A program made the translations under genes and the position numbers. The notes below the pieces were generated by a model. It did no database searches. It was not told the origin of the DNA and saw nothing but the letters and a program-made list of their open reading frames with translations. From Bacteroidota bacterium (lineage in GTDB: Bacteria > Bacteroidota > Bacteroidia > Bacteroidales > GCA-2748055): a stretch of DNA of 38,052 nt. Positions 1 through 24,994 of the stretch are shown here, piece by piece. The stretch spans positions 1 to 38,052 of the forward strand of contig DAOWFP010000066.1 in assembly GCA_030637895.1 (NCBI GenBank), given 5' to 3'. Each line of letters begins with the position of its first letter. Positions within the stretch are counted from its first letter, which is position 1.

Positions 1-2172
1 AGGTACACCATTTAATTCAGCTGATTGGATATATATGTTTGTGCCGGTAGAATTCTTAGCAATTAATTTGAAGGTATTTCCATTCTGTAAATGGATTGAT
101 ACTTTACTAAATACCGGGCTTGTAATTGTATAAAATGGAATTCCGGGTTTGATGGGAAAAAAGCCCATGGATGAGAATACTACAAATGCGGACATGGAAC
201 CCCCATCTTCATCACCAGGGACACCGAAAATGTTATCCTGAAACCATGTATCCAGAATTTGCCGGGTCCATTTCTGGGTTTTCCAGGGAGAATCGGTATA
301 ATTAAAAAGGTATGGAATATGAAAGGAGACCTGGTTTCCCATGGAAAAATTGCCGATCAAACCAGTTTGATCTGGAAATTTTGCCCAGAAATGATATTTA
401 CTCTGGTCCAATCCCTCCCTGAAAAGTTGGTCAAGGCGGTTTTCAAACAGAATTTTACCCCCCATCAGGTCCTGAAGACCTTCGATGTCATGTTGTACAT
501 ACCATAAATAAGACCATCCATTGTGCTCGTTGTAATAATCTCGCCCCCCGGGGCCACCATCAAATTTGGGATCAATTTCTATCCAGTTTCCAAGCGCATC
601 TTTTGGCATAAAAAATCCTTTTTCAAACCAATACAGGTTTTTATAGTTCTCGGATTTTAGAATGAATCGCCTGTTAATCATATCATTACCCAACTCCATC
701 GCCATTTCACTTAATGCCCAGCTGTCGTAACTATGTGCTAACGTTATAGCTACTGCTGATCGTTTTTGCCCCGGTTTTCCCAGGGCCAGTGTATCCGTTT
801 CCTTCTCCCCGGGATGTAACGCAGGATAATATCCATTCATATTATAGAAATCTTCAAGCAAGCCTTTCGGACCATTCCGGCTGGGAAGCATGGTTGCCAG
901 CTCAGCACTTTTCAATATGCCTTCAAACGCTTTATCAACATCAAAGTTTCTAATCCCTTTGCGATAGGCATCCAGGAACATGATGGATGAATGAAATCCA
1001 AACATACCAGCCCGGTCTCCAAAATGTCTTGGATAATCAGGCATCCAGCCACTTTGCCGGTACATCCTGACATATGAATAAAGCATATCCGATTCTACCG
1101 CTGGATTGAGGAGCATGCGTAAGGGATGAAGCGCAATAAAATTCCCCCAGGAATAGTCATCCACATAAAAAGACCTGCTATCTTCATGAATCTGATTGTC
1201 ATATCCACTGAAATACCTCCCATTCTCAGTGATATTTACCATCCGGACATAACAGCGATATAAAGCTGTATAAAAGCTGCGTTTCTGTCCTTCGGTTCCA
1301 CCTTCTACCTGTATCTGGCTGATAACTTTATCCCAGGCCGATCTCCCATTATTCTTGAGTTCTTCAAAGCTTACCCCATTCAACTCCTGATAGTAATTAC
1401 TTTTCGCCTGGTCCTGGCTGATAAATGAAATAGCATAACGAAATTCAACACATGATGAATCGCTTTCTGAATAGTTGATCCAGACTTTATTTCCTTCACT
1501 TTTATATCCGGGAATCCCGGTAAAAACCCCATATAAATATGCAATCCCATTTTGTTGATGATGCAAATCAGTCACTGATTCTTTGCCATAAATTTCATTT
1601 GGAATAGCCATCTCATATGAGCCATTTGCATAATAATGTGACAACAATAGATTCTTTTTGACATTTTCAGGAAATGAAAATCGGTAAATTCCGGTTCTTT
1701 CTCCTGCAGTAAATTCAAGAAGTATGTCATCATCTGTAAGCAAGGTGGCATAATACCAGGGCCGGGTTATTTCATGGTTATATTCGTAATTCAATCGCTT
1801 GCTAACACTCACATCAGTTACTTCTCCAGTTAACGGTTTGATGGAAAAAATAAGTTGTGGAGTAATGACATTCAATGCGAGACATGGAAAATCGGTGATC
1901 TCAGCATCCAGATGATCTTTCCGGTTTGGGAATACCCTCACCATTTGATTTGGTAAATGAACGACTGGCCTGTTAGGATTTAGAAGAGGCGCCACATTGC
2001 CAATCGTAGGATCAATATAGTTGAGGTCGGGGTTGCATGCAGGGTTTTGATCATATGAATAAATGGAGTGATGTTGAATTTGGGAAAACCCCGGTTTACA
2101 AATAAGTATTGCTGTCAAAAATAAAATGAGATGCAGGGTATTGCTGGTATTACACCTCTGAGTATTTTTCAT
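1..2172 (-). CDS. Divergent GH92 glycosidase, secreted (3' end outside window)
   Basis: This gene runs off the left edge; 724 codons are present and GH92 proteins are usually about 750 residues, so only the last few dozen are missing. The N-terminus is a signal peptide ending near GFSQ, with no convincing lipobox, so a periplasmic or secreted enzyme is likely. GH92 enzymes are calcium-dependent inverting exo-alpha-mannosidases. The GH92 acid motif is visible as NEHNGW (Glu549) and the base loop as GVPGDEDGG (653-658). The usual N-terminal FPGA..PFGM block is instead of the type HLPNQMVRVFPNRKD, as in the GH92 gene at 7409-9661, so the sugar specificity may differ from classical mannosidases. 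The start at 2172 was chosen because it gives a complete signal peptide. It is last in view of the run from the sulfatase operon, 49 bp after its upstream neighbour. The family call is secure; the substrate is not. Confidence 0.9.
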   Translation of the reverse strand, partial: MKNTQRCNTSNTLHLILFLTAILICKPGFSQIQHHSIYSYDQNPACNPDLNYIDPTIGNVAPLLNPNRPVVHLPNQMVRVFPNRKDHLDAEITDFPCLALNVITPQLIFSIKPLTGEVTDVSVSKRLNYEYNHEITRPWYYATLLTDDDILLEFTAGERTGIYRFSFPENVKKNLLLSHYYANGSYEMAIPNEIYGKESVTDLHHQQNGIAYLYGVFTGIPGYKSEGNKVWINYSESDSSCVEFRYAISFISQDQAKSNYYQELNGVSFEELKNNGRSAWDKVISQIQVEGGTEGQKRSFYTALYRCYVRMVNITENGRYFSGYDNQIHEDSRSFYVDDYSWGNFIALHPLRMLLNPAVESDMLYSYVRMYRQSGWMPDYPRHFGDRAGMFGFHSSIMFLDAYRKGIRNFDVDKAFEGILKSAELATMLPSRNGPKGLLEDFYNMNGYYPALHPGEKETDTLALGKPGQKRSAVAITLAHSYDSWALSEMAMELGNDMINRRFILKSENYKNLYWFEKGFFMPKDALGNWIEIDPKFDGGPGGRDYYNEHNGWSYLWYVQHDIEGLQDLMGGKILFENRLDQLFREGLDQSKYHFWAKFPDQTGLIGNFSMGNQVSFHIPYLFNYTDSPWKTQKWTRQILDTWFQDNIFGVPGDEDGGSMSAFVVFSSMGFFPIKPGIPFYTITSPVFSKVSIHLQNGNTFKLIAKNSTGTNIYIQSAELNGVP

Positions 2173-2221
2173 AGCATTTTGAATTTTTTGAATCCTGCAG
2201 GGTTCAAATTTCCAGTCTTAC

Positions 2222-9741: not shown

Positions 9742-9786
9742 ACAATATATAACGGAGGAAGTAATAAAATATTAATATTTCTTTAA
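9742..9786 (-). promoter_or_regulatory. Regulon promoter/operator of the GH92-sulfatase operon
   Basis: On the minus strand TTAA occurs at 9786-9783 and 9775-9772, a direct repeat with 11-bp period. A near copy, TTAC, follows in phase at 9764-9761. The -7-like box TATATTGT starts at 9749, exactly 26 bp after the start of the second TTAA. Transcription would begin near 9735, leaving about 74 nt before the GH92 start. The layout is identical to that of four other sites in the window (12751-12806, 19767-19811, 22564-22608, 24949-24993). The adjacent 9662-9741 and 9787-9909 hold nothing else I can support. Confidence 0.65.
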
Positions 9787-9909
9787 TATCCCTTTCATTA
9801 CCCCAATCCTTGTTGGGATTCTTCCCTAAGCTGATCCTCATCCCCGTTCAGTCCTCCATAGGTTGAAATATCAGAGAAGGGCGTTTCTGACAACACTCTA
9901 TGATGGTAC

Positions 9910-12750: not shown

Positions 12751-12806
12751 CTAATATAGGATCCCGGGAATAGCAAAACATTAAAGTCGCATTAATAAAA
12801 GATTAA
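12751..12806 (-). promoter_or_regulatory. Regulon promoter/operator upstream of GH78
   Basis: Three TTAA repeats lie on the minus strand at 12806-12803, 12795-12792 and 12784-12781, with perfect 11-bp period. The -7-like box TATATTAG starts at 12758, exactly 26 bp after the start of the last TTAA. The box sits inside an inverted repeat (ATCCTA-ATA-TAGGAT, 12748-12762) next to the palindrome TCCCGGGA (12762-12769). Predicted transcription from about 12744 gives a 5' leader near 100 nt. That leader could encode only a 21-residue peptide (MRINPKN...), for which I see no support. Same layout as four other sites. Confidence 0.68.
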
Positions 12807-12821
12807 AGCTTCAATAATAGC

Positions 12822-19766: not shown

Positions 19767-19811
19767 TTAATATAGCATCATTGCTGAAAAAAAACATTAA
19801 TTAATTCTTAA
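19767..19811 (-). promoter_or_regulatory. Regulon promoter/operator of the transporter operon
   Basis: TTAA lies at 19811-19808 and 19800-19797 on the minus strand (11-bp period). The -7-like box TATATTAA starts at 19774, exactly 26 bp downstream of the second TTAA. Predicted transcription from about 19760 leaves a leader of about 30 nt before the MFS start at 19730. TTAA is its own complement, so the same bases could serve the divergent regulator gene. The remainder of 19731-19932 is AT-rich with no gene apart from a possible 13-codon leader. Confidence 0.68.
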
Positions 19812-19834
19812 AAAGATCAAACAAAATATATTTC
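19801..19834 (+). promoter_or_regulatory. Possible plus-strand promoter for the regulator gene
   Basis: On the plus strand a TTAA at 19801-19804 is followed, with the same 26-bp register as the other sites, by TATATTTC at 19827-19834. The second TTAA expected 11 bp further upstream is missing; TTAA at 19797 and 19808 are out of register. If used, it would place a 5' leader of about 95 nt ahead of the regulator and mean autoregulation. This is a weak call from position and box only. Confidence 0.25.
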
Positions 19835-19894: not shown

Positions 19895-19936
19895 ATGGAT
19901 AAATTTTTTGCCTATTCACAAGTTCTCAGCGGGTGA
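19895..19936 (+). CDS. Possible 13-codon leader peptide overlapping the regulator start
   Basis: An ATG at 19895 opens a 13-codon frame (MDKFFAYSQVLSG) whose TGA overlaps the GTG start of the regulator (GTGA at 19933-19936). Stop-start overlap of this form is typical of translational coupling and would explain a non-ATG start without an evident ribosome-binding site. No strong ribosome-binding site precedes it either. It may be chance; homologous loci would have to keep it. Confidence 0.2.
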   Translation: MDKFFAYSQVLSG

Positions 19937-22458
19937 CCTATAATACAAAAACAAAGAATAGCTTATTGAGTCGGATATTATGGCTATTCCTACTCGCCTT
20001 CATGCACTTATGCACCATTGTTGAAGGACAGTATTATGGAATGAAGTTTGCCGGTATTGAACATTCTCTTGATCAGCGATCAGGTCTTAATCTTACTCCG
20101 GAGCATTCTCTTAATTTCAAGGGCAATCTGGATCTGGAGTTTTACCTTCGTTTTGAAGCGGATCATGAATCCTACTTTGGTTACATCTTTCGACTCATTC
20201 TCGGAGATAAGAACATCGACTTAATTCATGGTGTCGTCCCCGGTAATCCCAATAACTTCGAATTGATCCTCGATGGGAAAACCAGTGATATCGCTTTTAA
20301 GGTTCCTCTTGATGATCTAAGAAAAGGCTGGTTAAAAATCAGGCTGGAGCTAAATTTCGAAGAGGGTCAGATTACCTTCTATTACAATGACATAGCTCTG
20401 GTGGAAGATCTAGACGCCTATGATCCTAGAAGTGGTTTTCGATTGATGTTTGGGGCCAACTCATTTGGTAACTTTTCATCCACAGATGTTCCAAATATGA
20501 TTATCCGGGACGTGCAGGTGAAAAGTGGGAAAAACACCAGGATAATCTGGCCCCTGGATGAAACTGGTGGTATTATCGCCCATTCCTTTCCCGGGGGAAA
20601 TAATGGAATTGCAGTCAATCCGGAATGGTTATTGAAATACCATAATACCTGGGACCAGAGGTTGAGCAAGCAGATATCCGGAGAAGTAAAGACAGCCTTT
20701 GATTCCAAAAACGATGATCTTTATTTACTCACTACGGATTCTCTCCATATATATAATATAGCGGATGATTCCATAAGAAGCTTAGCTCTGGGATTAGCTT
20801 ACCCCCTTGAAAGTTCCACCCAAATTATCTTTGACACCTCCTCCAATAATCTATTGATGTACTCCCTGGATTATAATTTTATAGCCACTTTTGATTGGGA
20901 GACAAGGATGTGGGACACATATGATACGGGTCCAAGAGATATTACAGTCTACTGGCACCACAGCCGTTTTATTGATCAGGATGGATCGCTTATTGCCTTC
21001 GGTGGCTATGGGCAGTATACCTTTAAAAATTCGGTATTTCTCTGGAATCCCGAAAAGAGTCGTTTCGATAGCATTAGTTACCAGGGAGACTTTCTTCCCA
21101 GGTATCTTGCAGGGGCAGGCTATAATCCCGGCGATAGTCTTTTCTATTTAATAGGTGGCTACGGTAGTGAAAGCGGAAAACAATCTGAGAGTCCGGACTA
21201 CTATTATGAGTTGATCCGTTTCTCCCCGGACGACAGAGCTTTTTCCAATGTGCATAAGTTCGAGGATACAGAGGCCGGATTCTGCTTTGCTAATTCCATT
21301 GTTTTTGATGATGCCAACAATCTTTATGCGCTTTATTTTCCCAAATATCAATTTGACAACCAGCTCCAGTTAATCAAGGTCTCACCTGAGAATCCTGAAA
21401 TTTTTGAGCTGGGGAACGCCATTGATTTCAGTTTTCTGGATATAAACTCAAGTGCTGATCTTTATTACAGCCAGAGATCCGGTTCCCTCCTGGCATTATC
21501 ATCCTACACTTCAGATGGCACCACTCAGGTCTCTATTAATACCATTGCATTTCCACCGCAAAGTTTTTCGACAAAAACTGTAGCAGAGCAAAAACGAAAC
21601 CCTGGTATTGTTAAATACTTTTTGATTGCAGTCCTGGTGTTTGTAGCCAGCTACCTGATTAGTCTTCTAAGGAAAAAGGGGAAGTCTTCAAAAAGAAAAA
21701 CTATTTCTACCCACAGGGAAGGAGCTCCAACAACCAGGGCGAACTCCATCATCCTATTCGGGGGATTCCAGGTAATAGACAAAGCCGGGAACGATATCAC
21801 AGGTCAGTTTACCCCCCTGCCGAAGAAATTATTTCTGTTCATTCTTCTGCACTCCTTGCGAAACGATAAAGGGGTCTCATCCAACACCCTTTATGAAACC
21901 TTCTGGTTTGAAAAAGCAGTGGAAAGTGCCAGAAATAACAGGGCTGTGAATATCGTAAAATTGAAATCCCTGCTCGACAGTCTTGATTCTGCTGCCATCT
22001 CAAAAGCTACCGGTTACTGGAAATTCAATTTTGACCCTGCTGCGATATCTATAGACTATTTTGAATACCTGCAACTTGTCAGCCAGACAAAGGAAACAAC
22101 AAGGGAGCAAGTTGTTCGTCTTCTGGCTATTATTGAAAACAATCCCTTTTTAAACAATACAAATGCTGATTGGCTCGACCCCTTCAAATCTGAAGTATCC
22201 AATGCCATCATTGACACCTTATTCAGGTATATCCATAACGCTGATGATGATCCAGAGTTTCTGCTGCACCTGACCAAATGCATTTTTCAATGTGATATCG
22301 TTAGTGAAGAAGCACTTAAGATCCAGTTGCGCTTGCTCATCAAGCAAGGCAAGCACAGCCTGGCACAGAAAGCTTACTCGATTTTTCTTAAGGAGTACGA
22401 AACGCTTTATAATGAAGCCTACGGTTTAAGCTTTAAACAGCTTATTGGCGAGGAGTAG
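19933..22458 (+). CDS. Membrane-spanning SARP-like transcription activator with LamG/Kelch-like sensor
   Basis: The 841-residue product has a signal/anchor segment (about 13-32). A LamG/concanavalin-like domain follows (about 35-205), then a beta-propeller region with Kelch-like strands (about 235-545, IAFGGYG at 354-360 and YLIGGYG at 405-411). One membrane helix (about 559-580) is followed by a basic stop-transfer, KKGKSSKRK. The cytoplasmic part has a SARP/OmpR-type winged helix (about 605-710; PLPKKLFLFILLHSL and SARNNRAVNIVKLKSLLD) and a helical BTAD-like tail (about 711-841). It should sense a glycan in the periplasm and switch transcription directly. The start is GTG at 19933, with an in-frame stop at 19900 upstream; TTG at 19966 is an alternative, and the first in-frame ATG (Met24) would spoil the signal. 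It is divergent from the transporter operon and flanked by regulon promoters. Confidence 0.83.
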   Translation: MTYNTKTKNSLLSRILWLFLLAFMHLCTIVEGQYYGMKFAGIEHSLDQRSGLNLTPEHSLNFKGNLDLEFYLRFEADHESYFGYIFRLILGDKNIDLIHGVVPGNPNNFELILDGKTSDIAFKVPLDDLRKGWLKIRLELNFEEGQITFYYNDIALVEDLDAYDPRSGFRLMFGANSFGNFSSTDVPNMIIRDVQVKSGKNTRIIWPLDETGGIIAHSFPGGNNGIAVNPEWLLKYHNTWDQRLSKQISGEVKTAFDSKNDDLYLLTTDSLHIYNIADDSIRSLALGLAYPLESSTQIIFDTSSNNLLMYSLDYNFIATFDWETRMWDTYDTGPRDITVYWHHSRFIDQDGSLIAFGGYGQYTFKNSVFLWNPEKSRFDSISYQGDFLPRYLAGAGYNPGDSLFYLIGGYGSESGKQSESPDYYYELIRFSPDDRAFSNVHKFEDTEAGFCFANSIVFDDANNLYALYFPKYQFDNQLQLIKVSPENPEIFELGNAIDFSFLDINSSADLYYSQRSGSLLALSSYTSDGTTQVSINTIAFPPQSFSTKTVAEQKRNPGIVKYFLIAVLVFVASYLISLLRKKGKSSKRKTISTHREGAPTTRANSIILFGGFQVIDKAGNDITGQFTPLPKKLFLFILLHSLRNDKGVSSNTLYETFWFEKAVESARNNRAVNIVKLKSLLDSLDSAAISKATGYWKFNFDPAAISIDYFEYLQLVSQTKETTREQVVRLLAIIENNPFLNNTNADWLDPFKSEVSNAIIDTLFRYIHNADDDPEFLLHLTKCIFQCDIVSEEALKIQLRLLIKQGKHSLAQKAYSIFLKEYETLYNEAYGLSFKQLIGEE

Positions 22459-22467
22459 TAACACCCT

Positions 22468-22501
22468 AAAAAAAGAGAGTGTACCTTTTGATACACCCTC
22501 T
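22468..22501 (-). terminator. Intrinsic terminator, minus strand
   Basis: Read on the minus strand, AGAGGGTGTA pairs with TACACTCTCT over 10 bp (one G-U wobble) around the loop TCAAAAGG and runs into seven T residues. On the plus strand the stem has an A-C mismatch and no T-run, so the orientation is minus. It ends 10 bp short of the regulator stop codon, closing transcripts that arrive from the GH92 gene at 22629-24926 or from the promoter at 22564-22608. Confidence 0.8.
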
Positions 22502-22557
22502 AAACCTGAAATACTTCAACTAACTAAATTACTACTAAAAAACTACTTGCGTTATTC
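22468..22557 (-). ncRNA. Predicted small RNA controlled by the glycan regulon
   Basis: A complete regulon-type promoter (22564-22608) points into a stretch of about 90 nt that has no ATG and no usable frame, and that ends in a strong intrinsic terminator. A small hairpin (TGAA-GTAT-TTCA) lies between about 22506 and 22517, upstream of the terminator stem. If regulator mRNA reads through its 3' end, this RNA would be its perfect antisense there; it could also act elsewhere. The alternative is that this is only the 3' untranslated tail of the GH92 gene plus an incidental promoter-like sequence. The rest of 22459-22628 shows no gene. Confidence 0.42.
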
Positions 22558-22563
22558 TGGGTG

Positions 22564-22608
22564 CTAATATATAGCTGGATAAATAAAAAATTATTAATAA
22601 TACCTTAA
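22564..22608 (-). promoter_or_regulatory. Regulon promoter/operator with no downstream ORF
   Basis: On the minus strand TTAA is at 22608-22605 and 22597-22594 (11-bp period), and TATATTAG starts at 22571, exactly 26 bp after the start of the second TTAA. The -7-like box is identical in sequence to the one upstream of GH78. The site lies between the 3' ends of the convergent regulator and GH92 genes, so it cannot serve an ordinary downstream gene. It faces a terminator about 65-100 bp away. Confidence 0.6.
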
Positions 22609-22628
22609 TACAGTAATTAATTTCGTTT

Positions 22629-24926
22629 TTATTCCCAGAACACTCTTTTTTCTGGTCCCATTATGAATGTAATGGTGGCACCTGCCTCAATATCAGCGTG
22701 ATTAATATATGGTTCCTCTAGCTTAACTCCATTTAGTTGAACCTCCTGTACATATGGATTGGCTTCTGATCTGTTCCTGGCGATAACACTAAAAATCTTC
22801 CCATTGGCCATATCAATTTCCACCCTGTCAAAGGAGGGGCGCCCTATAGAGTAACGAACATCACCCGGACATACAGGATAAAAGCCAATGGAATTCAGAA
22901 TGTACCAGGCAGACATCTGTCCGCAATCCTCATTCCCCACAATTCCATCAGGTTTATCTGTGTAGAACTGCTCCAGGATCTCTGAGACAAGCTCCTGTGT
23001 TCTCCAGGGCTGATCCACGTAGTTATAAAGGTAGGCGATATGGTGACTGGGCTCATTTCCATGTGCATACTGTCCAATCAGGCCTGTAATATCCACACTT
23101 TTCTCTTCCCCAAGAACTTCTGAGGTAATGCTAAAGAGCGAATCAAGTTTAATGATAAATGACTCTGGCCCTCCCATCAGATCAATCAGCCCGTAAACAT
23201 CATGCGGTACATACCAGGTCCATTGCCATGCATTTCCCTCAACATAGGGTGTTGCCCAATGGGCCGAGTACCTTGGATGAAAGGGCTCCAACCAGCTTCC
23301 ATCCAGATTCTTACCACGCATAAAGCCAAGCTCTGGATCAAAATAGGTGGAGTAGCGCTTTGACTTTGCGAAGAACTCCTCGGCTAAATCCTCTTCACCC
23401 ATTTCTTTTGCCATGCTTGCTATGGCCCAGTAGTTATAAGCGAATTCCAATGCCTTTGATACAGAAGAATGCTCCAGATCGCATGGAATGAAGCCATATT
23501 TTTCCTCAAATAACTTCGCTTCCGGCATCAGGTTCCCCCAGGCCTCCTCAGAGGGATAGTTGATCTCTTTAATGGTGTCATAAGCCACTGAATGAACGAT
23601 TGCTTCAAGTGCCTTCTCCGCATCAAAGTTGCGATGGCCCTTCATATAGGCATCAACGATTACCGAAACCGCATGTGATCCGATCATGGTTCCTGTATAG
23701 TTGGAAGCCAATCCCCACATGGGTAATATTCCGCCTTCATCGTATTTCCGCAGGAGAGCCCTGATTAGCTCCTGGTTGTAATCCTGGTTCAGTATGGTAA
23801 ACAAGGGATGAAGCGCACGGTGGGTATCCCACAAGGAAAATACTGTATAATTGGGGCTGCTGGAGTAATGAATCTGCTGATCCATGCCCCGGTAGGTCCC
23901 ATCCACATCAGAATAGATCCCCGGGTATATGGAACTATGGTACAGGGCAGTATAAAAGGTCCTTTTCTCACTCAGGTCATTTGTCTCTATCCGTACTTTT
24001 GACAGCTCCTTCTCCCAGATCCTCTCCGCCTGGCTGCTGATGTAATCGAAATCCCATCCATTTAACTCCTGGTTCAGGTTCTTTGCCGATCCTTCATAAC
24101 TAACTGCACTAAGTCCAATCTTTGCAATAACCTGCTCCCCTTCTTCCGTATGAAATTTTAATTTAAGCTTCGCATTCTTACCTGATACACTTGTACTGCC
24201 CTCCTGCAGCTCATTGTCCAGGTATAACTCGGCATCAAAGGGTTTTGAAAATTTCGCAGTAAAATAGACATAATGATTCTTCGCCCACCCGGAAGTCACT
24301 TTCAGGCCCTGGATCTCTTGCTTATTAAGTATTTTAATCTCGTGAAGAGGGTTTTCATGACCATGAATGGTATGTGTTAGATCTATCAGAATTCCAGCAT
24401 TCTCTGCTTCAGGAAAAGTATAGCGGTGCATTCCCGTATGGTAAGTCGAGCTTAATTCAACTCCTACATTATAATCTGTTAGCTCAACGCTGTAGTAGCC
24501 AGGTCGGGCACTTTCCTTCTCTTTGTTAAATCTTGATCTGTATCCTGAATCGATCTGATCTTCAGAACCTGCATCCAGGGAAACTTCCCCGGTATAAGGC
24601 ATAAATAAAATATCTCCATAGTCTCCAATTCCGGTTCCACTCAGATGGGTATGGCTGAAACCAAGGATGGAAGAGTCTGAGTAGTGATAACCGGCGCAGG
24701 CATCCCAGCCAAGGGTACGTGTATCAGGACTAAGTTGTACCATACCAAAGGGAAGTGTGGCACCGGGAAATGTATGTCCATGGAAATCAGTACCGATAAA
24801 AGGGTCTACATAAGCAACGAATTCTGCACGATTCCGGCTTTTTATTATGGGCCCGCCACAGGCAAAAACGATAAGCGCAAATAGCGTGATGAGGAAAAGT
24901 GGACTTTTGAATCCTATCGTTGTCAT
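22629..24926 (-). CDS. Canonical GH92 alpha-mannosidase, probable lipoprotein
   Basis: This 765-residue enzyme carries the full set of classical GH92 motifs: VDPFIGTDFHGHTFPGA (40-56) and PFGMVQLSPDTR (59-70) in the N-domain, and GWDACAGYHYSD (73-84). It also has LWDTHRALHPL (365-375), YVEGNAWQWTW (561-571) with acid Glu563, and GIVGNEDCGQMSAWY (661-675) with the base aspartates. These enzymes use calcium to distort mannose and release it from alpha-linked mannosides with inversion. The signal sequence ends in a probable lipobox at Cys23 (FACGG; Phe at -2 is unusual). It stands alone, convergent with the regulator, and has its own regulon promoter. The linkage (1,2, 1,3 or other) is not settled by the sequence. 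Confidence 0.95.
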   Translation of the reverse strand: MTTIGFKSPLFLITLFALIVFACGGPIIKSRNRAEFVAYVDPFIGTDFHGHTFPGATLPFGMVQLSPDTRTLGWDACAGYHYSDSSILGFSHTHLSGTGIGDYGDILFMPYTGEVSLDAGSEDQIDSGYRSRFNKEKESARPGYYSVELTDYNVGVELSSTYHTGMHRYTFPEAENAGILIDLTHTIHGHENPLHEIKILNKQEIQGLKVTSGWAKNHYVYFTAKFSKPFDAELYLDNELQEGSTSVSGKNAKLKLKFHTEEGEQVIAKIGLSAVSYEGSAKNLNQELNGWDFDYISSQAERIWEKELSKVRIETNDLSEKRTFYTALYHSSIYPGIYSDVDGTYRGMDQQIHYSSSPNYTVFSLWDTHRALHPLFTILNQDYNQELIRALLRKYDEGGILPMWGLASNYTGTMIGSHAVSVIVDAYMKGHRNFDAEKALEAIVHSVAYDTIKEINYPSEEAWGNLMPEAKLFEEKYGFIPCDLEHSSVSKALEFAYNYWAIASMAKEMGEEDLAEEFFAKSKRYSTYFDPELGFMRGKNLDGSWLEPFHPRYSAHWATPYVEGNAWQWTWYVPHDVYGLIDLMGGPESFIIKLDSLFSITSEVLGEEKSVDITGLIGQYAHGNEPSHHIAYLYNYVDQPWRTQELVSEILEQFYTDKPDGIVGNEDCGQMSAWYILNSIGFYPVCPGDVRYSIGRPSFDRVEIDMANGKIFSVIARNRSEANPYVQEVQLNGVKLEEPYINHADIEAGATITFIMGPEKRVFWE

Positions 24927-24948: not shown

Positions 24949-24993
24949 ATAAAATAAGATTGGCAACTTAATTTTCGATTAACAAATGATTAA
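24949..24993 (-). promoter_or_regulatory. Regulon promoter/operator of the canonical GH92 gene
   Basis: Three TTAA repeats run on the minus strand at 24993-24990, 24982-24979 and 24971-24968 with exact 11-bp period. The -7-like box TATTTTAT starts at 24956, 26 bp after the start of the middle TTAA. Transcription would begin near 24942, giving a leader of about 16 nt with AGAAGG just before the ATG at 24926. The first repeat lies directly behind the stop codon of the SGNH hydrolase gene. Confidence 0.66.
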
Positions 24994-24994
24994 T

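Follow-up and report, generated by a model that had tools for sequence, protein, structure and literature searches.

The gap between two convergent genes of a glycan-degradation cluster contains a copy of a promoter that also precedes enzyme and transporter genes of the cluster, and this copy is directed at a terminator with no ORF in between. The anatomy supports well the reading that this regulon promoter drives a short noncoding RNA, a predicted transcript of ~93 nt (22468-22560, minus strand) whose start is placed from the promoter box and whose end is placed from a T run. On our preferred reading, which we hold tentatively and place just short of an even chance, a SARP-type promoter in the 3' UTR of a GH92 gene would produce this RNA as a cis-acting antisense brake on the regulator encoded opposite.

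The window, by which we mean the whole stretch of DNA analyzed (38,052 nt), belongs to a genome assembly of 2.37 Mb that is 58.75% complete. A Pfam scan of 20 proteins, reaching as far as 34220, identifies the contig as a glycan-degradation cluster encoding two GH92 proteins, GH78, a sulfatase, phosphoesterases, and GFO/IDH/MocA, ROK, MFS transporter, GDSL lipase, and 3-keto-disaccharide hydrolase proteins. Because SusC and SusD were not found among the 20 proteins scanned (window positions 2222-34223) and an MFS transporter is present, the cluster is not a classical PUL. At the contig end, a further GH92-like gene appears by eye to be cut off (1-2190, minus strand). The regulator gene (19933-22458, plus strand) encodes an 841-aa protein in which kelch-type repeats are combined with a probable membrane helix and a C-terminal part predicted to have a SARP fold, and it converges with a GH92 gene (22629-24926, minus strand) that has its stop at 22629 and a 3' UTR containing the segment discussed here, leaving a gap of 170 nt (22459-22628) between the two.

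The pattern TTAA-N7-TTAA occurs at just five places in the 38-kb window, every one of them intergenic, with minus-strand positions of 9786, 12806/12795, 19811, 22608, and 24993. The five sites have in common WTTAATG-type heptamers separated by 4-bp spacers, a period of 11 bp, and exactly 9 nt between the third heptamer and a TAnnTTnn box, the third heptamer of the GH78 site being degenerate in the common register. Four of these putative promoters, all on the minus strand, precede the GH92 gene that ends in the gap (24951-24994), the MFS transporter gene and the genes after it (19769-19812), GH78 (12753-12807), and the other GH92 gene (9744-9787). The gap copy, also on the minus strand, consists of heptamer 1 (ATTAAGG, 22603-22609), heptamer 2 (ATTAATA, 22592-22598), and a degenerate heptamer 3 (TTTATTT, 22581-22587), with TATT and ATTT as the spacers, followed by ATCCAGCTA and, 9 nt past heptamer 3, the -7-type box TATATTAG (22564-22571). 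An extra TTAA half-site (22617-22620, minus strand), found in the window and in two of the related loci described below (L002 and L003), lies 12 bp upstream of the TTAA of heptamer 1.

The proposal in the preliminary description of this DNA that a fifth copy of the regulon promoter lies between the convergent genes is confirmed by a weight matrix derived from the four remaining sites, with which the held-out gap site scores 28.1. The best score outside the sites and the shifted or reversed registers of the GH78 repeats is 15.2, and none of 5000 dinucleotide shuffles of the gap reached 28.1, the maximum being 23.0. The loose strict pattern alone was found in 70 of 20000 gap shuffles, and the weight therefore rests on the full match. 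Across the 2.37-Mb assembly, the strict pattern has six matches, compared with one for the reversed control, and all six are inside the window, namely the five sites and one opposite-strand match at GH78. The same description had also equated the gap box with that of the GH78 promoter, and indeed TATATTAG occurs at the correct distance in only two places in the assembly, GH78 and the gap.

The same geometry was surveyed in seven related genomes by taking 40 of 81 strict-pattern matches, picked by eye for a TTA-like third half-site and without knowledge of gene positions. All but one of these sites (39/40) have a co-directional ORF starting within 250 nt downstream, and none is inside an ORF (0/40). 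In a comparison set consisting mostly of weaker third half-sites, 23 of 29 are before ORFs; this set shares 3 sites with the test set, leaves out L050 by the position filter, and counts L035 on both strands. As the comparison set is also mostly before ORFs, the third half-site adds modestly. Judged from this placement, the 11-bp/9-nt geometry is a mark of putative promoters. The bare pattern count is not specific in AT-rich genomes, as exemplified by G018, with 15 strict-pattern matches and 14 for the control. The layout seen in the gap, with a terminator starting 20-250 nt past the box, was found at none of the 40 survey sites. Separately, six loci from genomes of the same genus (L025, L027, L028, L032, L040, and L051) carry another recurrent, promoter-like element, TTAACATNAANTTAAT with a TATTTT box at the same spacing, 5-33 nt before ORFs, which is perhaps a second regulon with 11-bp repeats.

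Downstream of the gap promoter, a hairpin on the minus strand (22501-22474) has 12 pairs and a 4-nt loop when two G-T pairs are counted, or 10 bp and an 8-nt loop when they are not, and is followed by seven T. It is the only terminator-like site in 21500-23500 on either strand, and hence the sole candidate terminator for the GH92 mRNA as well, and the terminator ends 9 nt short of the regulator stop codon. The minus-strand hairpin and its seven T were described correctly in the earlier account, but the ~90 nt given there as the distance to the terminator is the distance from the box to the end of the T run, the stem starting 62 nt past the box. The segment between box and terminator has no ATG, as that account also stated. 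In addition, no reading frame in it is conserved across three species.

The segment lies in the GH92 3' UTR and shares the single nearby minus-strand terminator candidate, and its location there with a shared terminator makes the predicted RNA a candidate 3' UTR-type sRNA with its own promoter. By published criteria, 3' UTR-derived sRNAs share a terminator with the parental mRNA or have a processing site, are noncoding, and arise from a TSS or processing site toward the 3' end of a coding gene (PMC7366714, in part). The segment agrees in having one candidate terminator for both putative transcripts and no ATG or conserved frame, and as to the start, a putative promoter is present 3' of GH92. 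The hairpin is most likely an ordinary terminator that also ends the GH92 mRNA. Hairpins of this type, with the core TGTATC-AAAA-GGTACA, were found in 10 of the 28 genomes of the family when 3 or fewer mismatches were allowed, and an identical copy of 26 nt is present at C184 between two ordinary convergent ORFs. An instance lies at L056 (1508-1533), and the terminator type is either spread or convergent in the genus. A search of the genome with the gap gave, apart from the gap itself, only two matches at E < 1, with E values of 4.5e-09 and 0.008, and both are to the terminator stem. Since it is a recurrent genus terminator type, the hairpin alone is no evidence for an RNA gene. What stands of the proposed sRNA-gene architecture is therefore a regulon promoter leading to a terminator with no ORF between, but the same stretch is also the GH92 3' UTR and its hairpin is generic.

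A search for the regulator in 28 family genomes gave six positives, including the window's own, at E values up to 1e-150, and among the family genomes a convergent GH92 gene next to the regulator was found in the window, L002, and L003. A search of genome contigs returned four loci, of which L021 was new, whereas L020 is identical to L002, L022 to L003, and L023 to the L006 locus, the last having the regulator without a convergent GH92 gene. Sampling 393 genomes from the order and 7 from the family of G392 gave nothing further except L024, which is L021 again. This makes four loci in all with the convergent pair (the window, L002, L003, and L021). The preliminary description had suggested checking whether promoter, spacer, and terminator are conserved together and had held that a terminator kept without the promoter would speak against an RNA gene. 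Promoter and terminator are both kept at three of the four loci, both are absent at one, and neither is found alone at any (0/4, a small sample); the conservation comes from three loci in fragmentary assemblies of a single genus, with 10 N in the spacer of L003.

L002 and L003, whose regulators have 58-59% identity, retain the extra upstream half-site, heptamers 1 and 2, and the 9-nt spacing, with TATATTAG or TATATTGC as the box, and each has a minus-strand terminator directly beyond the regulator gene. Their stems and that of the window show no sequence relationship. At L021, the regulator and GH92 genes are 11 bp apart with neither promoter nor terminator, and the site before GH92 is still present. 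The element is therefore dispensable. The L021 regulator gene (453-2953) has an in-frame TAA, which may be linked to loss of the element or decay of the regulator, or may be an assembly error. The gap promoter is no better conserved between species than a neighboring gene promoter (30, 32, and 35 of 46, compared with 35 of 46).

These comparisons bear on the alternative that no functional RNA is made, the hairpin being the GH92 terminator and the promoter either a remnant of a gene since lost or a site where the regulator binds for some other purpose, such as to damp convergent transcription. The ordinariness of the hairpin type in the genus and the absence of the element at one of four loci are both consistent with such an explanation. 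However, a remnant would be expected to decay, and yet three species retain the half-sites, the 9-nt spacing, and the box; the rarity of the strict pattern among gap shuffles (just the 70 in 20000 given above) also argues against it; we regard this explanation as rather unlikely.

A second alternative, in our estimation unlikely, accepts the RNA as described but has it act in trans, its unpaired 5' part pairing with other mRNAs in the manner of GibS and FopS. Trans-acting sRNAs related to PULs are known from the material available in PMC11697453, and the three spacers contain 2, 2, and 4 copies of AGTAGT; in 20 of 5000 shuffle sets, some 6-mer occurs twice or more in each of the three spacers. 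The motif was picked after looking, however, and the 5-mer version of the test gives 570 of 5000, while a 7-mer common to all three spacers arises in 723 of 5000. The complement ACTACT is not enriched before ATG in the genome (46, compared with 49 in the control), and none occurs near a gene start in the window. Nor did any Rfam family match the window at its gathering score, permissive matches in the gap being at chance level, and L002, L003, and L021 together gave just two snoRNA-type chance matches, both in L021. Trans action would require a conserved seed, and with mixed statistics and no target signal for the sole shared candidate, AGTAGT, it is unproven. A third alternative, that the segment codes for a very short peptide, would account for a promoter and terminator arranged as at a gene but is highly improbable, given the lack of an ATG, the richness in TAG and TAA, and the lack of any frame kept among the three species.

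The spacer between promoter and terminator has diverged more freely. The alignment of the window and L002 spacers beats 300 of 300 shuffles, and for the two pairs with L003, the score is reached by 13 and 29 of 300 shuffles. The spacer thus seems to drift between a retained promoter and a retained terminator, a pattern that action in cis would permit.

Sequence searches with the regulator detect kelch-type repeats only, and a probable signal peptide and single membrane helix can be read from the sequence by eye. The C-terminal 251 residues, modeled from 16 sequences with a pLDDT of 90.4, have no match in Pfam up to E 10 or in NCBIfam up to E 1, so that a family sequence model for SARP proteins does not recognize them, and a weak winged-helix match to SaeR in the PDB has an E value of 0.075. 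With the predicted structure, Foldseek places AfsR and EmbR first (E 3.2e-06 to 1.6e-04), and VIA-align against their SARP domains gives Z scores of 14.4-15.3 with an rmsd of 4.2-4.4 over 229-230 aligned residues, the next-ranked row having 8.1. The model contains both the OmpR-type winged helix and the BTA helical domain that define the SARP architecture, and as modeled, the C-terminal domain folds like the SARP activators AfsR and EmbR. The promoters agree with this, as the five sites have 11-bp repeats with 9 nt to the box, compared with the 8 bp described for SARP promoters, and we infer that the 841-aa regulator binds the five sites. It is possibly a member of a class of membrane-bound glycan sensors with their own promoter code; no kelch-SARP regulator of glycan loci is named in the titles and opening lines of abstracts covered by our literature search.

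Returning to the antisense brake, the active regulator would turn on the gap promoter along with the promoters of GH78, both GH92 genes, and the transporter. The predicted RNA would start near 22560 and stop near 22468 at the GH92 terminator. No plus-strand terminator was found in the gaps of the window, L002, or L003, and the regulator mRNA should therefore enter the segment, to which the RNA is complementary; the earlier claim that the RNA would be antisense to regulator read-through is accordingly right as geometry. The RNA would be complementary over its whole length to the regulator mRNA in its 3' UTR and would most likely act in cis, so that induction of the regulon would place an antisense brake on the regulator. 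Feedback via antisense to the 3' end of the regulator gene is plausible from this arrangement, with binding, activation, the transcript, its pairing with the regulator mRNA, and the feedback itself all being steps that we infer. Because any GH92 mRNA that extends to the shared terminator would itself be antisense to the regulator mRNA, a separate RNA could be redundant; antisense RNA would be present even without the added promoter, which would increase its amount and set its timing. A more elaborate version is doubtful. In it, a membrane-spanning kelch-SARP sensor of Bacteroidota would control its glycan regulon via 11-bp-repeat promoters, and a further copy of this promoter in the 3' UTR of a target enzyme gene would produce an antisense RNA that brakes the sensor mRNA, closing a negative feedback loop within a convergent gene pair. 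As this RNA would act solely in cis, its sequence could drift freely.

If the brake is real, Bacteroidota glycan loci would gain feedback by an RNA that is coupled to the activator itself. It would also suggest that membrane-bound regulators with a SARP fold form a class whose promoter code can be read, consisting of half-sites every 11 bp, 9 nt, and TAnnTT, so that regulons and orphan RNAs could be predicted from sequence in uncultured species.

As far as the sources consulted extend, sRNAs at Bacteroides glycan loci and, in other phyla, 3' UTR sRNAs with their own promoter are already known. The latter include MicL in cutC, DapZ in dapB, and MicX, and MicL is controlled by the regulator of its own pathway, sigma-E (PMC9438474, in part). 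The predicted RNA resembles them in that its promoter is located at or close to the 3' end of a coding gene, but it is in another phylum, its promoter is past the stop codon, and its activator would be SARP-like. DonS-type antisense RNAs of Bacteroides PULs are 78-128 nt long and are divergent from, and antisense to, susC (PMC7366714, in part). A short RNA in a glycan locus that is antisense to a neighbor is common to both cases, whereas the neighbors here are the regulator, at its 3' end, and GH92, and neither SusC nor SusD was found in the scan of 20 window proteins. GibS and FopS are Bacteroides thetaiotaomicron sRNAs tied to glycan use (PMC11697453, in part), and they share with the predicted RNA an association with glycan use, an intrinsic terminator, and a loosely structured 5' part, although the promoter type is different and the FopS covariance model (RF04319) scores 17.6 on the gap against a gathering threshold of 56 (E 2.1). 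Within the portions of the literature examined, we did not encounter the combination proposed here, in which a promoter of the locus activator is located within a target gene's 3' UTR and faces the 3' end of the activator gene. The closest parallel for the promoter is that of SARP activators, which have 11-bp repeats with the last one 8 bp from the -10 box (PMC10936776, in part). The regulator and its sites resemble AfsR and EmbR in the fold of the DNA-binding and activation domain and in 11-bp repeats 8-9 bp before the box, but here that domain forms the C-terminal part of the protein, following kelch-type repeats and a probable membrane helix, and the box is of the Bacteroidota -7 type, described as TAnnTTTG in the source material available.
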